A stretch of DNA of 64,000 nucleotides, from the NCBI RefSeq assembly GCF_009650765.1, contig NZ_CP045740.1:5060001-5124000 (forward strand), in the 5' to 3' direction. The stretch comes from Streptomyces sp. SUK 48 (GTDB lineage Bacteria; Actinomycetota; Actinomycetes; Streptomycetales; Streptomycetaceae). Of this stretch, positions 20,222 to 39,250 are shown in pieces. The notes under the pieces were generated by a model. It was given only the letters and a program-made list of their open reading frames with translations, had not been told where the DNA came from and did no database searches. How positions within the stretch are numbered: position 1 is the stretch's first letter; every line of letters begins with the position of its first letter. The translations under genes and the position numbers were made by a program.

Positions 20222-20413
20222 CTAAAGCTCGCCCTTGACCAGGCTTCCGATGAATGCCTGCCACCCTTCGAAGGCGCTGGTCAGGACCGGGCCTGCCTGC
20301 TCTTTGCTGTCTCGCGTGGCGACTACGTCGTCAAGGTAGGCCACCTCGACGCAGTTGCCGTTTCCGTTGCTGTGGCTCGACTTGAACCACTCGGCGTTCT
20401 CAACTCTCTTCAT
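20222..20413 (-). CDS. DUF397 domain protein (proximal copy, coupled to XRE regulator)
   Basis: 63 aa from the ATG inside the last codons of the XRE gene (14-bp overlap). It is near-identical to the 19650 copy: FKSSHSNGNGNCVEVAYLDD, TRDSKEQAGPVLTSAFEGW. The overlapping arrangement with a DUF5753 XRE protein is the standard WhiJ-type module in Streptomyces, so the two are expected to act together. Confidence 0.88.
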   Translation of the reverse strand: MKRVENAEWFKSSHSNGNGNCVEVAYLDDVVATRDSKEQAGPVLTSAFEGWQAFIGSLVKGEL

Positions 20414-21287
20414 AGCTCCCTGCAACTTCAGCAATCAGACGCCTCGACGCCTGCTCGTTCAGTGATGCTTCCCAGACGTTGTTGAAGGCCGCGTCGTACT
20501 GCTGCACCTCCCGTTCCTTGTCCAGGTACAGACCCCCGGTGTACCCGTCCGCGTAGACCGTCGGCGGTTCCGTGTCCACCCCGTCACCGGTCAACGGGAA
20601 CCGGAGGATCATGAACGGGCCGGCAACCACTCCTGAGTGCATACCAGCAGCGAAGGGCACCACGCGAATCGAGACGTTGGGCAGCTCTGAGACATAGACA
20701 AGGTGCGCGAGTTGCTGCATCATCACCTCCCGCCCGCCGACGGGACGACGTAGCACGGCCTCGCCCAGAACCGCCCGAAACACCGGCGGGTCGGTGGCTC
20801 GGGTCAGGAGTGCCTGCCGTTCGAGGCGGAAGCGCACGCGGCCATCAAGGTCTGCGTCGTCAATTCCCCGGATATGTGTGCGGATGATCTCGCGCGCATA
20901 CCCATCGGTTTGAAGCAGACCATGTACGAGATCGCTCTCGTACGACGACAGGGACTGCGCAGCCTCTTCGAGGCCCACGTAGATGTCGAACCCCTCCGGG
21001 ATCACGTCGCCGTACGCATGCCACCAGCCGCGCGCTTTGGTCTCCTTCGCGAGTCCCATCAGGGCCTCGGTGATGTCCGGTGGAGCGCCATACACCAGAC
21101 ACATCGCCTGAACATCGAGGCTTCGCAGTGGAGTCTGGCCGGTCTCGATGCGCCACATCTTCGCCTCGGACCATTCCAGCTTCGTCGCCGCCGCACGCAC
21201 TGTCAGACGTGCCCGGTTGCGTAAATCCCTCAGGTTACGCCCCAGTTGACGACGAGGAACGGTTGATCCAGTTGGACCCTCAGCCAT
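20400..21287 (-). CDS. XRE family regulator with DUF5753 domain (WhiJ-like)
   Basis: 295 aa, ATG with GGAGGGG upstream. HTH is at about residues 12-70 (LGRNLRDLRNRARLTVRAAA, WSEAKMWRIETG). DUF5753 fills the rest (YESDLVHGLLQTDGYAREI, RQALLTRATDPPVFRAVLGEAVLRR, VSIRVVPFAAGMHSG). Such proteins are developmental or antibiotic-linked repressors in Streptomyces, working with a DUF397 partner and often a divergent anti-sigma-like ATPase, as found here. Leu22 is encoded by TTA (21224-21222), so translation should depend on the bldA tRNA. Confidence 0.9.
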   Translation of the reverse strand: MAEGPTGSTVPRRQLGRNLRDLRNRARLTVRAAATKLEWSEAKMWRIETGQTPLRSLDVQAMCLVYGAPPDITEALMGLAKETKARGWWHAYGDVIPEGFDIYVGLEEAAQSLSSYESDLVHGLLQTDGYAREIIRTHIRGIDDADLDGRVRFRLERQALLTRATDPPVFRAVLGEAVLRRPVGGREVMMQQLAHLVYVSELPNVSIRVVPFAAGMHSGVVAGPFMILRFPLTGDGVDTEPPTVYADGYTGGLYLDKEREVQQYDAAFNNVWEASLNEQASRRLIAEVAGSYEES

Positions 21288-21541: not shown

Positions 21542-21979
21542 GTGATCAATCTGCCGCAGGCGCCCCCGCCCGCATGTTGCCCGCCTCCCGACGGTCCACC
21601 GCCCACGCTGCTGTTGGCGAGCGATCCCGAATCAGTCGGTCGGGCCCGCACCTACGTGCGCGAGGTACTGGCACATGGTGAACCCCCGGTTGCCGCCGAC
21701 TGTGTCGACACCGTCGTGCTCATCGTCTCCGAGCTGGTGACGAACGCCTACCGCTATGGCACCGAGCCGGGCGACTCGATCCTCGTCGTGGTCAGTACGA
21801 CACCCGACCGTGTGCGCGTCGAGGTGCACGATCCCAGGCGACGCCGCCCCCGGCCCCGCGAGGCGACGGGCGACAGCACCCGAGGGCGCGGTCTGCACAT
21901 CGTCGGTGCCCTCGCGGAGCGGTGGGGTGTGGACGACAGGCCGTTCGGCAAGAAGGTATGGGTCGAGGTGACCAGGTGA
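21542..21979 (+). CDS. ATP-binding protein, RsbW-like anti-sigma/serine kinase fold
   Basis: 145 aa from GTG with GAGGGG 6-7 nt upstream. HATPase_c_2 motifs are present: VSELVTNAYRYG (N box), [16 protein letters not shown] (G1) and GRGLHIVGALAERWGV (G2). Members sequester sigma factors or phosphorylate anti-anti-sigma proteins. In Streptomyces they are commonly divergent from WhiJ-like genes. A Cys/Pro-rich N-terminal tail precedes the fold. It shares a GTGA overlap with the next gene. Confidence 0.88.
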   Translation: MINLPQAPPPACCPPPDGPPPTLLLASDPESVGRARTYVREVLAHGEPPVAADCVDTVVLIVSELVTNAYRYGTEPGDSILVVVSTTPDRVRVEVHDPRRRRPRPREATGDSTRGRGLHIVGALAERWGVDDRPFGKKVWVEVTR

Positions 21980-22440
21980 CCGGCCCCGGCCTCACCATCC
22001 GGGCCGTACCCGGCGCCGACTTCGTCGCGGGGTGCACCGTGTCGACATGGCTCGACATGGTTGCCTTCCTGCTGATCGGACACCCTCCTCCGCAACGCCC
22101 CGGTGAGACGGCCGAATCGATCGAGGTCGGTTTGATGGGCATGGTCGACGCCATGGGACTGCGTCCCGCAGTCGAGACCGTGCCGGCTGTGGGGCTACGC
22201 ATCGTGATGCGAGGTCCTTACGCCGCCCTCGACTACGGGCACCCCACAGTCTTCATGCAGGTACCCACCGTCGGTGACGCGTGGCGGTCTCATCTCAACC
22301 GTGGCGGCCCCGCTCTGCTCGTCATCGCCCTCGACCTGATTCCCCCGGGCGCAGGCCCCGACGCTCTTGCGAACTACCTCGACCGCGTCGCCTCCACTCG
22401 ACGGGCCTATGCGGGCACGACGGCCCTTCGGAACCAGTGA
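21976..22440 (+). CDS. Hypothetical protein (possibly DUF5949-like)
   Basis: 154 aa from the GTG that overlaps the preceding stop (GTGA), so translation is likely coupled to the ATPase. It is soluble and contains TWLDMVAFLLIGHPPPQRPGE, MVDAMGLRPAVE and FMQVPTVGDAWRSHLNRGG. I do not recognise a catalytic motif. Length and style recall small Streptomyces DUF5949 proteins, but that is a weak guess. Confidence 0.7.
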   Translation: MTGPGLTIRAVPGADFVAGCTVSTWLDMVAFLLIGHPPPQRPGETAESIEVGLMGMVDAMGLRPAVETVPAVGLRIVMRGPYAALDYGHPTVFMQVPTVGDAWRSHLNRGGPALLVIALDLIPPGAGPDALANYLDRVASTRRAYAGTTALRNQ

Positions 22441-22653: not shown

Positions 22654-22791
22654 ATGATCGAGCAGCAGATTCGCGCCACCGAGGCCGACGAGGACGAGCT
22701 GACGCTGGTCGAGCTCGGCGACGCTGCCGCCCTCACCGAGGGCCAGGGCGGCGGCCACAGCGAGGACAAGCGACGGGCCTACAACAGCTGA
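22654..22791 (+). CDS. Lasso peptide precursor (albusnodin-like)
   Basis: 45 aa. The acidic leader begins MIEQQIRATEADEDELTLVE and ends DAAALTE. The predicted core GQGGGHSEDKRRAYNS covers residues 30-45. It has Thr at leader position -2 and Gly at core position 1, both lasso hallmarks. Glu8 (or Asp9) can form the macrolactam with Gly1, leaving a Lys-Arg-Arg loop and tail. From memory, albusnodin of S. albus has the core GQGGGQSEDKRRAYNC with an acetylated Lys10; this core differs at position 6 (His) and at the last residue (Ser). RBS AGAGAGGAA. The gene is followed by all the maturation genes. Confidence 0.92.
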   Translation: MIEQQIRATEADEDELTLVELGDAAALTEGQGGGHSEDKRRAYNS

Positions 22792-22799
22792 TCCTCCAC

Positions 22800-22833
22800 C
22801 CGGTGGTGCGGCCCGGCCGGGCCGCACCACCGG
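22800..22833 (+). terminator. Perfect 17-bp palindrome between precursor and cyclase
   Basis: The arms CCGGTGGTGCGGCCCGG and CCGGGCCGCACCACCGG are fully complementary, starting 9 bp after the precursor stop and ending 26 bp before the cyclase start. It probably acts as a partial terminator or 3'-end stabiliser that raises precursor mRNA over the enzymes. Confidence 0.75.
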
Positions 22834-22858
22834 TCCAACCGCATCCAGGGAGGAATTC

Positions 22859-24688
22859 GTGATCTTCGGCGGTTTCAATACCACTCCTGACGTCTGCCTG
22901 CCGCGTCCCATCGGCTCCACCCCGCTCGCGGCCGCATCGAGTTCCTGGCGACTCGGCGACGGCCCTGCCCACGTGCTCGCCGACATCGTCGGCCGACGCC
23001 GCGTCCTGCTCCTTGGCTGGTGCGGGGCGAGCGCTGTCGAGTTCTCTCATCTGGCCGACGGCGCCCTGCCCGCAGACGCGGCCTGGCGTTGGCCCGGCAC
23101 CTACACGATCGTCGAGGAGGCCGACGACGGTGCGGTGGTCGTGTACACCGACCCTGCCGCTGCCTACCCCGTGTACGCCGCCCGGTGGGACGGCGGCTGG
23201 GCCTGGTCGACCTCCGCCCGACTGCTGGCAAGCCTGTCCGGCGCGGCCATCGACGCCGGGCGTTTGGCCTGCGCGGTTCTGCTGCCCTCGGTGCCCGCTC
23301 TCGCGGGAGACCGGACCTTCTTCAGCGGCGTGCATCAGCTGCCACCCGGCGCACGGGTCGAGTTGCCGGCGCACGCCACCGCCTGGCGGGCAACCACCGT
23401 CTGGCGCCCGGAGCCGGTGCTCGGCGGCCCGCCCCACGTCCGGCTGCGTACCGCGCTGAAAAGCGCGGTCGAGTTACGGGCAGACGCCCCTGACCTGTCC
23501 TCGGACCTGTCGGGCGGGCTGGACTCCACCAGTATCACGATGCTGGCCGCCACCGCCCTGCCTGCCGGGCAGCGTCTGGACGCGGTCACCGTCCACCCGG
23601 ACGGCAACCTCGGCGGGGCCGACCTGCGCCACGCCCGCCTGGCCGCCGACCGATATCCGTGCCGCATCGCCCACCATCTGCTGCCGCTCGCCGACCGGCA
23701 CCTGCCCTACACGCGGATCACCGATGTCCCGGCGTCCGACGAACCAGCGCCCTCGACGCTGACCAACGCCCGTCTGATCCACCAACTGAACTGGATGCGG
23801 GCTGAATTGGGCAGCCGTACTCACCTGACCGGCGACGGCGGCGACAGCATCCTGTTTCAGCCACCGGCCCACCTCGCCGACCTGATCCGCCACCGCAACC
23901 CGGGCCGCGCGGTGGCCGAGGCCCTCGGGTGGGCTCGCCTTCGACACGTTCCGGTCGGTCCGCTGTTGCGAGACGCAGTCCGCCTCGCGCGCACCACCCG
24001 GCACCGGGCTCTGGACCTGCTTGCCGCACAGGTCGGGACGGCGGCCGGACGCAACGACCACGGCCGCGTCACCTGGTTCCCGCTGCTGCCTCTCCCGTCC
24101 TGGGCCGAGCCGCAGGCCCGGCGTCTGCTGGCCGAGGCCGCCCAACGGGCCGCCGCCGAGCCCGACCCACTGCCGGGCCTTGACTTCGCGGTGCGGGTAC
24201 TCGTGGACGAGATCCGCGAGGTCGCCCGCACCGCTGTCGCCGACGCCCGGCTCGCCGCTGCCTGCGGCATAGACCTGCACAACCCCTTCCTCGACCCGGT
24301 CGTGGTGGACGCTGTGCTGACCTGTCCGATCGACAGCCGACCCGCGCTGCATGCCTACAAGCCGCACCTGGCCCGTGCGATGGCCGATCTGCTGCCGCCG
24401 CAGACCACCGCCCGCACGACCAAGGGCAGCTTCGACGCCGACCACTACACCGGGATGCGGGCCAACCTGGGTGACCTGTCCGCCCTCGCGGACGGCTACC
24501 TAGCCGCGCTCGGCCTGCTCCATCCCGGAAGCTTCCGTCGGCACCTGGCCCAGGCCGCGGCCGGGCTGCCGATGCCGCTTGCCACCCTCGAACAGGCACT
24601 TGCCGCCGAAGCATGGCTCACCGCCCATCACCGCGACCCCGCCCCCGGCTGGACCCGTACTCCGGTGAGGAGCAGACCTCGTGCCTGA
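22859..24688 (+). CDS. Lasso peptide macrolactam synthetase (asparagine-synthase-like, protein C)
   Basis: 609 aa from GTG with GGGAGGAA upstream. The N-terminal glutaminase-like domain lacks the nucleophilic Cys2 (starts MIFGGF), as in lasso cyclases. The ATP pyrophosphatase loop SGGLDSTS is at residues 218-225, followed by GDGGDSILF and DLHNPFLDPVVVDAVL. The enzyme adenylates the core Glu/Asp side chain and closes the ring on Gly1. Leu206 is a TTA codon (23474-23476), an unusual bldA-dependent control point. It overlaps the next gene by 8 bp. Confidence 0.92.
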   Translation: MIFGGFNTTPDVCLPRPIGSTPLAAASSSWRLGDGPAHVLADIVGRRRVLLLGWCGASAVEFSHLADGALPADAAWRWPGTYTIVEEADDGAVVVYTDPAAAYPVYAARWDGGWAWSTSARLLASLSGAAIDAGRLACAVLLPSVPALAGDRTFFSGVHQLPPGARVELPAHATAWRATTVWRPEPVLGGPPHVRLRTALKSAVELRADAPDLSSDLSGGLDSTSITMLAATALPAGQRLDAVTVHPDGNLGGADLRHARLAADRYPCRIAHHLLPLADRHLPYTRITDVPASDEPAPSTLTNARLIHQLNWMRAELGSRTHLTGDGGDSILFQPPAHLADLIRHRNPGRAVAEALGWARLRHVPVGPLLRDAVRLARTTRHRALDLLAAQVGTAAGRNDHGRVTWFPLLPLPSWAEPQARRLLAEAAQRAAAEPDPLPGLDFAVRVLVDEIREVARTAVADARLAAACGIDLHNPFLDPVVVDAVLTCPIDSRPALHAYKPHLARAMADLLPPQTTARTTKGSFDADHYTGMRANLGDLSALADGYLAALGLLHPGSFRRHLAQAAAGLPMPLATLEQALAAEAWLTAHHRDPAPGWTRTPVRSRPRA

Positions 24689-25412
24689 GCCGACCGGCTT
24701 CGCCGTCCCACCCGCACACGTCCGCGCCGTCGACTTCGGGCACGTCCTGGTCCTCATCGACTACCGCACCGGCCAAGTCCGTGGACTGTTGCCCGCCGCC
24801 GCTGAACGCTTCCGCACCGCCGCCCGCACGGGCCACGTCGGCTGTTTGCCGGGGCGGCTCGCCGACCAGCTGCTGACCGCAGGGCTCCTGGCCCCCACCC
24901 CGGCCGCTGGTCCGTGGCCGGTGACCCCGGCCGCCACCGCGGCCGCGAGCTGGGGCAGCACCGAGCACCCCGCCGGCATTGTCCGCCCCGGACCCGTCCT
25001 GACATCTGCCCTGCTGGGTGGATCCGGAGCGCTTGCCGTCGTCGCTGCCGTCAAGGCCGTCGGCGAGCGCGGCACCGCGATGAACCGCGTCGTCCGGGTC
25101 GTCGAGCGGGCCGTGTCAACCTGCCGCCGCCCGGCCACCCCTCGGCAGGCGGAAGCCGCCGTTCGAGCGGTCCGAGCCGCCGGGTGGTGCTCCCCGGCAC
25201 GCACCGCCTGTCTGGAGGAGTCCGCCGCCGCCGTGCTGCTGCTGGCCGCTCGACGGCTCGCCGTCACCTGGTGCCACGGCATCGCCGCCGATCCCGTGCG
25301 ACTGCACGCCTGGGTGCAGACTGAAGACGGCGCCCCGGTCGCCGAGCCCGAGTCCACCCTCGTCTACACGCCCGTCCTCACCATCGGAGGCCGCCATCAC
25401 CGCCAGCCCTGA
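24681..25412 (+). CDS. Fused RRE (PqqD-like) - leader peptidase, lasso B1-B2 protein
   Basis: 243 aa from GTG. Residues 1-75 form a PqqD-like RiPP recognition element (VLVLIDYRTGQVRGLLP, ADQLLTAGLLAP) that should grip the leader. Residues ~110-243 are the transglutaminase-like lasso protease with Cys177 (ACLEESAAAVLLL) and His209 (RLHAWVQ) plus an acidic residue shortly after. It cleaves after the LTE of the leader. In proteobacteria and many actinobacteria B1 and B2 are separate or arranged otherwise; here they are one chain with an Ala/Pro linker. Confidence 0.88.
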   Translation: MPEPTGFAVPPAHVRAVDFGHVLVLIDYRTGQVRGLLPAAAERFRTAARTGHVGCLPGRLADQLLTAGLLAPTPAAGPWPVTPAATAAASWGSTEHPAGIVRPGPVLTSALLGGSGALAVVAAVKAVGERGTAMNRVVRVVERAVSTCRRPATPRQAEAAVRAVRAAGWCSPARTACLEESAAAVLLLAARRLAVTWCHGIAADPVRLHAWVQTEDGAPVAEPESTLVYTPVLTIGGRHHRQP

Positions 25413-25971
25413 GCCGACCATCTGGGTCCGCGACAACGCCTGCGGACTCGGCCCGTACCGTGCCGACCTGGTGGAGACCTACTGGCGGTGGGAACAGGAT
25501 CCCGTCGTCCTCGTCGGTTACGGCCGCCAGCAGCCCGAGTCGCTGGAGGCCCGCACCGAGGGCATGGCCCACCAGATCCGGGGCGACAACATCCGCTTCA
25601 CCGTCTACGACCTCACCGGCGAGGTACCGGTCCCCGCCGGAATCGCCACCCTGCTGCCCGACTCCGCCGTCCGCACCGCCGAGTACGTCGTGATGCTCGC
25701 CCCCGAGGCACGCGGGAAGGGCTTGGGGGCGGCGACGACCCGGCTTGTCCTGGACTACGGGTTCCACATCACCAACCTGCGAATGATCTGGCTCAAGGTC
25801 CTCGCACCCAACACCGCCGCCGTTCACGCCTACGAGAAGGCCGGCTTCCGCATCGCCGGAAGGCTCCGCCAGGCGGGGTACTGGCTCGGTCAGGTCTGCG
25901 ACGAGCTGATCATGGACGCGCTCGCCGCCGAGTTCACCGGTCCCTCCGTGATCGTCCCGCTGGTGTCGTAG
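25396..25971 (+). CDS. GNAT N-acetyltransferase, probable lasso peptide lysine acetyltransferase
   Basis: GNAT fold with acetyl-CoA motif YVVMLAPEARGKGLGAATT and NTAAVHAYEKAGFRIAGR. Conserved-looking sequence extends upstream of the first canonical start (GTG 25471, no RBS): TIWVRDNACGLGPYRADLVE. No ATG/GTG/TTG precedes it in frame, but ATC at 25396 stands 5 nt after a perfect GGAGG, so a rare AUC start giving 191 aa is proposed; from 25471 it would be 166 aa. By analogy with albusnodin it should acetylate Lys10 of the core. It overlaps the B gene. Confidence 0.8.
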   Translation: MTASPEPTIWVRDNACGLGPYRADLVETYWRWEQDPVVLVGYGRQQPESLEARTEGMAHQIRGDNIRFTVYDLTGEVPVPAGIATLLPDSAVRTAEYVVMLAPEARGKGLGAATTRLVLDYGFHITNLRMIWLKVLAPNTAAVHAYEKAGFRIAGRLRQAGYWLGQVCDELIMDALAAEFTGPSVIVPLVS

Positions 25972-39058: not shown

Positions 39059-39250
39059 TCAGGCCGTCTGGTGGGCCAGCAGCGCCACCGCGGCGATCAG
39101 CACCGCGAGCAGCGCGATCAGCGCCATCGGGTTGACCCCGCCCAGGAAGCCCTCCTGCTGAAGACGCGCGCGGTTGGCACGGCACACCGGGCACCGGCCC
39201 TCGCTCACGGGCGCCGCGCAGTTCGCGCACACCAACCGGTCGTACGTCAT
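39059..39250 (-). CDS. Small zinc-ribbon membrane protein
   Basis: 63 aa from ATG. Four cysteines in two CxxC pairs (LVCANCAAP and RCPVCRANR) form a probable zinc ribbon, and a C-terminal helix ([20 protein letters not shown]) anchors it in the membrane with the ribbon in the cytoplasm. Divergent from ftsE. No family function is known to me. Confidence 0.75.

Follow-up and report, generated by a model that had tools for sequence, protein, structure and literature searches.

A probable, conserved AUC start codon for the acetyltransferase gene of an albusnodin-type lasso peptide cluster in Streptomyces sp. SUK 48

The lasso peptide cluster of Streptomyces sp. SUK 48 ends in a GNAT acetyltransferase gene (T) whose reading frame has no ATG, GTG or TTG at the true N-terminus of the protein, and the locus raises the question of where the translation of this gene begins. 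The window analysed here is the whole 64,000-nucleotide stretch of DNA that contains the cluster, whose genes are all on the forward strand.

The albA-like precursor A (22654-22791) is 45 residues long, of which residues 1-29 form the leader with a Thr at position -2, and matches the profile NF033525 with 75.3 bits (cut-off 30, E-value 3.6e-21). The macrolactam cyclase C (22859-24688) starts at GTG, carries the SGGLDS motif at residue 218 and matches NF033561 with 743 bits (cut-off 300, 1.9e-223). The predicted fused RRE-protease B (24681-25412, stop codon TGA at 25410-25412) matches NF033537 with 83.2 bits (cut-off 33, 2e-23). The GNAT gene comes after B, as in albusnodin-type clusters, and its shorter listed frame matches PF00583 with an E-value of 5.8e-12. 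These matches are far beyond chance, and the gene set claimed by the first-pass annotation (a 45-residue ORF, a cyclase, B and a GNAT) is present. Its assignment to the albusnodin type was correct, since the precursor and the cyclase exceed the NCBIfam albusnodin cut-offs, and the cyclase, the N-terminus of which reads M-I-F, indeed lacks Cys2. Judged by its sequence, the cluster, with the order A-C-B-T, is a close relative of the albusnodin cluster. The latter, described from Streptomyces albus DSM 41398 (Zong et al. 2018), likewise has the order A-C-B-T, a GNAT and Lys10 (PMC9266682, PMC8498205), and its core is nearly identical. The SUK 48 cluster is a new member of an already named family, and its novelty lies in the start of T.

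The core peptide GQGGGHSEDKRRAYNS (22741-22788) has Lys10 as well as the Gly1, the Glu8/Asp9 and, at leader position -2, the Thr that had been claimed for it, all of which can be read in the sequence. The core is unique among the 47 precursors found and differs from its relatives only at the variable positions 6 and 16. Its earlier description as a distinct congener on account of His6 and Ser16 holds for the core as a whole and not for the two residues as unique features, because each recurs in this comparison: His6 in L091 and L092, and Ser16 in L020, L088, L089, L092 and L097. Six of the fetched precursors have the core GQGGGQSEDKRRAYNC, which we take to be that of albusnodin; the SUK 48 core differs from albusnodin by His6 and Ser16. 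Two SEDKRR cores stop at Asn15. The last residue is absent from albusnodin as isolated (PMC9266682). The Lys of the pattern T-x-G...[ED]xK[RQ] is kept in 47/47 precursors, 15 of which are not independent with respect to this conservation because they were found by a precursor-profile search. Albusnodin bears an acetyl-Lys10 (PMC9266682), and from these two observations the acetylation of Lys10 in the SUK 48 peptide, presumably by T, can be soundly inferred. The calculated masses of the SUK 48 lasso peptide are 1741.788 Da with the acetyl group, 1699.778 Da without it and 1654.756 Da for an acetylated form lacking the Ser.

Cys177 and His209, previously named as the protease residues of B, are invariant in a 14-row alignment, in agreement with the NF033537 match above its cut-off. 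In the AlphaFold model of B, the protease domain is preceded by a distinct domain at the N-terminus (about residues 7-72). A Foldseek search with B gave no matches at E <= 0.001; lasso B1/RRE proteins were among the top matches, and the probability was 0.98 (E 0.1) for 5v1v and 0.82 (E 1.3) for 6jx3. In the proposed pathway, the putative RRE domain of B would grip the leader and the protease would cleave it, C would join Gly1 to Glu8 or Asp9, and T would then acetylate Lys10, as expected from its family.

No ABC ATPase close to the cluster was picked up by a motif scan, which placed the nearest one of the window at 39136. The scan rejects an ABC exporter nearby, as had been stated, but the absence is not special to SUK 48, since none was found in the scanned relatives save at the edge of L155. 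No isopeptidase was found among the seven window proteins that were profile-scanned. Upstream of the cluster, on the reverse strand, lies an HTH_31/DUF5753 regulator (20400-21287; PF19054, 1.4e-54; PF13560, 5.9e-16), and genes similar to it occur at varying places in 20 fetched loci. A 172-residue ORF (21922-22440) was assigned to no family by the profile scan and had no match in the fetched loci.

The first-pass annotation was right about the presence of the GNAT, but the gene does not begin at the first GTG listed for it, at 25471. The real start is upstream and most likely is the ATC at 25396-25398, from which T (25396-25971) has 191 residues and overlaps B by 17 bases. This AUC start had been overlooked. 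The Shine-Dalgarno sequence GGAG (25386-25389) is situated within B, six bases before the ATC. Among the 34 T loci with a placeable start, 19, representing three genus codes, have ATC, and 15 have ATG or GTG at the same place with a GGAG spacing of 6-7. The start site reads, for example, GGAGCCCGCCATG in L152, L153 and L131, as against GGAGCCCGCCATC in L088 and L087. GGAG precedes the ATC by six bases in 19/19 ATC loci, with GAAG as the variant in L128. The open T frame upstream contains no ATG, GTG or TTG in 11 of the 19, and in five of those 11 (L087, L093, L097, L126 and L154) the next canonical codon lies at codon 50 at least; in L088 the T frame opens just 15 bases ahead of the ATC. Three further T genes with ATC as the start or at the start place (L129, with a TAG; L020; L023) are broken downstream. 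The PGAP annotation of T in L125 and L126 also uses an ATC, that of codon 8, and the start of C is canonical in all 13 ATC loci having C and B. Observations that count against the AUC reading include the three broken genes and the GAAG of L128, as well as a TTG at codon 9 of T in L007 and a GTG at codon 26 in six ATC loci, the window included. A CTG at codon -25 was rejected as the start, since the open frame does not extend to it in L088, L089, L093, L097, L126 and L154; it is common to many loci because of the conserved T-x-D-G of B. With z values of 0.11 to 0.86, four stretches of 80 nt gave no sign of a folded mRNA signal near the T start. A further reservation is that most inner branches of the T tree are weak, with 16 of 28 open.

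Were T to start at the GTG at 25471 (codon 26), the first canonical codon in its frame, the similarity upstream would be untranslated. This is hardly credible. The GTG is found at codon 26 in only 6/19 ATC loci, and the segment ahead of it evolves as coding in the T frame, codons 8-27 of the ATC loci having pN 0.143 and pS 0.404, near the body values of 0.142 and 0.504. All of the nearly invariant W10, G19, R22 and D24 and the invariant L25 are ahead of this GTG, and the segment is ordered in the model of T (pLDDT 88.9), in which codon 26 falls inside helix 23-33. The GTG start was rejected on these grounds. Of the solved structures 9iy3, 9iy4 and 9ubc ('Iterative acetyltransferase on lasso peptides from Actinomycetes'), 9iy3 has 56% identity to T with a TM-score of 0.91, and the alignment begins at its residue 5. 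The word 'iterative' in their title suggests several acetylations, whereas the SUK 48 core has one Lys. T also has matches of about 50% identity in G121, G231, G297 and G374. The AUC reading also corrects the N-terminus of such GNAT enzymes: a protein begun at the listed GTG would lack its first strand and some of its first helix, and clones made from that codon would therefore probably yield defective enzymes.

Codons of the overlap were counted in the 13 ATC loci having C and B, with the B of L088 trimmed at its in-frame stop. The B-frame His that supplies the AT of the start is encoded by CAT in 13/13 loci, whereas CAT accounts for 18/57 codons in five further columns of conserved His and for 73/377 in C and B, and the B-frame Gly that supplies GGA is GGA in 13/13, as against 120/800 in C and B, although these counts are weakened by shared descent. 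The B codons of the overlap stay at less common forms, through which both GGAG and ATC are preserved. GGAG and CAT occur also in the ATG relatives and could therefore be partly inherited. The T frame is +1 relative to B and is open across the overlap, so that T might be made as a B-T fusion through a +1 ribosomal frameshift near the end of B (CCC-TGA in the window). CCC directly precedes the B stop in 12/19 ATC loci (11 TGA, 1 TAA) and is within the last two B codons in four more. Such a fusion is nevertheless quite improbable and was rejected, since the slip site is not conserved, being absent in L088 (CTC TGA), L125 (TCC CGC TGA) and L130. Furthermore, GGAG and ATC, which are upstream of the slip site, would be functionless, which does not fit with the fixation of their B-frame codons at the rarer variants, and the canonical-start relatives have separate T starts at the same place.

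There is thus a high probability that, in this albusnodin-type cluster, ribosomes initiate T at an AUC that falls within the terminal part of B, with the GGAG six bases before it as their guide. T is probably supplied by the ribosomes that end B 17 bases downstream, and its output relative to B is probably low and IF3-dependent, because AUC is the start of Streptomyces infC and belongs to the codon class that IF3 represses (PMC5472188). The infC gene of SUK 48 also starts at ATC and has a GGAGG, and the stretch from the upstream stop to its conserved SAEPRINDRIR is free of canonical starts. Noncanonical start codons on record in bacteria are very few (PMC5472188). IF3 discriminates against those of infC, which are AUU in E. 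coli and AUC in Streptomyces, and against the GUC of Streptomyces sigR (PMC5472188). Like T, these genes keep a conserved noncanonical start and a Shine-Dalgarno sequence, and infC shares the AUC (PMC5472188); however, they are housekeeping or stress-regulatory genes, whereas T encodes a natural-product enzyme in an operon and overlaps the preceding gene. Among the matches listed from the open-access literature, no lasso peptide gene with an AUC or ATC start was found.

The ATC might be used as the start and yet have been inherited by chance, without regulatory meaning, in an ordinary member of the albusnodin family. The family assignment is plain, and a weak start may be tolerated because small amounts of the enzyme suffice, but we consider this reading doubtful. 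The ATC is retained across divergent species and genera at pS near 0.4-0.5, and ATG is present in both orphan lineages, that is, in the two T genes outside clusters, each of which has an in-cluster ATC gene as its partner in the tree. With two orphan cases only, this pattern suggests that selection favours a weak start within the cluster. That so rare a start is kept in many related bacteria suggests that the cells limit the amount of the enzyme.

The orphan T genes are under purifying selection, which suggests that T also protects on its own. In G147 (L155) no match to C was found at 1e-100 in the sample searched. The idea of the first-pass annotation that acetylation may serve as protection was preceded by the same proposal for albusnodin (PMC8498205). 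In the clusters of triculamin and lariocidin, a GNAT beside the lasso genes confers self-resistance by acetylation (PMC13352647, PMC11451635). These are other peptide families, and lariocidin has ABC transporters (PMC13352647, PMC11451635); the protective role of T is putative. We tentatively suggest that T is primarily an immunity gene, whose dose the producers would throttle by an IF3-discriminated AUC, linking acetylation to the condition of the translation machinery, while the orphans would survive alone outside clusters, would have regained AUG and might shield non-producers from the albusnodin-type peptides of their neighbours.

If the AUC reading is true, a conserved noncanonical start is present in an antibiotic-type operon and is kept across species, with natural ATC/ATG pairs. 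Among the fetched clusters with the GQGGGQSEDKRRAYNC core, T starts at GTG in L019 and L021 and at ATG in L005 and L018. The orphan T genes make the purpose of lasso peptide acetylation, whether folding or protection, testable, and T would give a direct way to test whether IF3 sets the dose of a tailoring enzyme.

The lasso peptide cluster is a new member of a kind that is already known. The precursor and the cyclase match the NCBIfam albusnodin models specifically. The fused RRE-protease, B, is also matched by a curated NCBIfam lasso model, which is not specific to albusnodin, and the GNAT acetyltransferase, T, is matched by PF00583 in the profile scan. All four genes lie where the first-pass annotation had placed them, and its albusnodin-type assignment holds. 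The genome is a single contig of 8.34 Mb with one copy of the close cyclase. A further cyclase-like frame, only distantly related (35-39% identity; loci L002 and L003), is situated at G000:C1 4449444-4451360. The cluster is preceded on its 5' side by an HTH_31/DUF5753 regulator (window 20400-21287, minus strand), similar genes to which occur at varying distances in 20 fetched loci. Directly 5' of the cluster is a 172-aa ORF (window 21922-22440, plus strand), to which no family could be assigned and which has no match among the fetched loci.

Relatives were collected by three queries: the cyclase, a precursor profile and T. Among 392 sampled genomes of the genus, the cyclase found a match in nine (1e-100 or better) and T in 17 (1e-50 or better). 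A precursor (E < 0.01) is present in 47 of the 54 loci examined, and all 47 fit the pattern T-x-G...[ED]xK[RQ], which is no independent test for the 15 loci that were found with the precursor profile. T accompanies 45 of these precursors. The exceptions are L022, which runs into a contig end, and L075, where the cyclase is partial and B and T are absent. The core had been proposed to be new. Its exact sequence is indeed seen only once in the set of 47, but it is a small variation, because residue 6 (Q10, S4, H3, N2, R1) and residue 16 (C10, S6, none 2, Y1, H1) both vary among the 20 cores containing SEDKRR.

The T frame is open for 312 bases 5' of the ATC at 25396, without an ATG, GTG or TTG. 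Counting from this ATC, the first canonical start codon is the GTG at codon 26, which falls within a helix (residues 23-33) of the structure model. Residues 8-25, which precede the GTG, are those conserved across the family, and codons 8-27 are as constrained as the rest of T. In the aligned loci, the Shine-Dalgarno sequence GGAG within the end of B is followed by six bases and then ATC, with the B stop 17 bases further.

Of the 36 T loci examined, 34 allowed the start to be located: 19 have ATC, 11 ATG and four GTG. The ATC loci come from the genera coded g1, g143 and g150, from S. diastatochromogenes (L007) and from two Streptomyces plasmids (L125 and L126); L008 and L156 encode identical T proteins on contigs that do not differ in length, and are probably one record. 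L020 and L023 were excluded from the 19 on account of their broken T frames. In each of them ATC occupies the start position, 6 and 7 bases after GGAG, and the frame breaks downstream in an otherwise cluster-like locus, owing to decay or sequencing error. No canonical codon precedes the start in 11 of the 19 ATC loci, and in five of the 11 the first 49 codons also lack one. On the two annotated plasmids (L125 6001-6585, L126 6001-6585) PGAP starts T at another ATC, codon 8, rather than at the ATC following GGAG, showing that it found no canonical start.

In the overlap, B keeps to those codons that preserve the signal. The B-frame His codon that supplies AT is CAT in 13 of 13 cases, whereas five further conserved His columns have CAT in 18 of 57; the Gly codon that supplies GGA is GGA in 13 of 13, compared to 19 of 108 for nine further conserved Gly columns. 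This bias may be partly inherited, since GGAG, and often CAT as well, is also present in relatives starting with ATG. Yet T has diverged widely at synonymous sites (pS 0.4-0.5), and an unused, merely inherited signal should have decayed; pS is low (0.127) in codons 2-6, as expected where B overlaps. On paper, T might instead be made by a +1 frameshift at CCC-TGA near the end of B, a motif found in 11 of the 19 ATC loci, with CCC-TAA in one more. However, in L088, L125 and L130 neither of the two codons that end B is CCC, and a frameshift would give GGAG and ATC no role. A CTG at codon -25 was rejected as the start, as it lies beyond the open frame in six loci. The AUC start of T is well supported by these comparisons and is new as far as our literature searches reach.

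Streptomyces infC is reported to start with ATC and sigR with GTC; sigR is repressed by IF3, and replacing its GTC by ATG increased reporter output roughly fourfold (PMC5472188). The infC gene of the present genome agrees with this report. It starts with ATC (L157 1496-1498), preceded by GAGGAGG, and there is no canonical codon between the upstream stop and ATC-AGC-GCC-GAG-CCC. Given these starts, T is probably one of the few genes limited by IF3. Its translation is likely to be coupled to that of B, because the two genes overlap. Re-initiation in E. coli is described as sensitive to IF3, though less so given a Shine-Dalgarno sequence (PMC2268962).

For nine T loci (L126-L131, L152, L153 and L155), the sequence fetched around T contains no cyclase. 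L154 was not counted, as it is cut by a contig end and the cyclase gene is on another contig of its genome. A wider search covered eight of the nine (not L155; for L126, the plasmid alone). The profile search, which gave no match of any kind, found no albusnodin precursor for these eight loci; the same profile detected precursors in another search. Nor was a full-length close cyclase found for the eight loci, with the positive controls G900 and G981 matching; the best matches were 44% over 173 residues in G808 and 32-33% in G056 and G005. Two of the eight have a broken T, L129 (in-frame TAG) and L153; the six intact genes have dN/dS values of 0.08-0.25 to their nearest relatives, indicating purifying selection. 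The adjoining B has been lost or cut down to a remnant of some 40-80 residues. Orphan T genes with a remnant keep ATC; those without B (L131, L152 and L153) have ATG. In the T tree, which is weakly supported at 16 of its 28 inner branches, L131 pairs with L087 (94/87) and L152 with L088 (91/86), both partners being in-cluster ATC genes and both pairings below the tool's mark for strong support. The ATC label requires five changes on this tree, compared to a mean of 10.8 when shuffled, and none of 500 shuffles was as low. At L152 4413-7276, the orphan T has genes for a TetR regulator and for an MFS transporter as neighbours, surroundings that resemble those of a resistance gene.

Solved structures of the T family exist under the title "Iterative acetyltransferase on lasso peptides from Actinomycetes" (9iy3). 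According to reviews, deletion of albT abolished albusnodin, and acetylation probably occurs before folding (PMC9266682, PMC8498205). A 2026 perspective, however, lists acetylation among the modifications confirmed after lasso formation (PMC13352647). The same perspective describes acetylation as a means of self-resistance in the case of triculamin and lariocidin. The orphan T pattern in these genomes is how an immunity gene would be expected to look, but it is not proof, since T genes of this sort could also persist for some time after a cluster has decayed.
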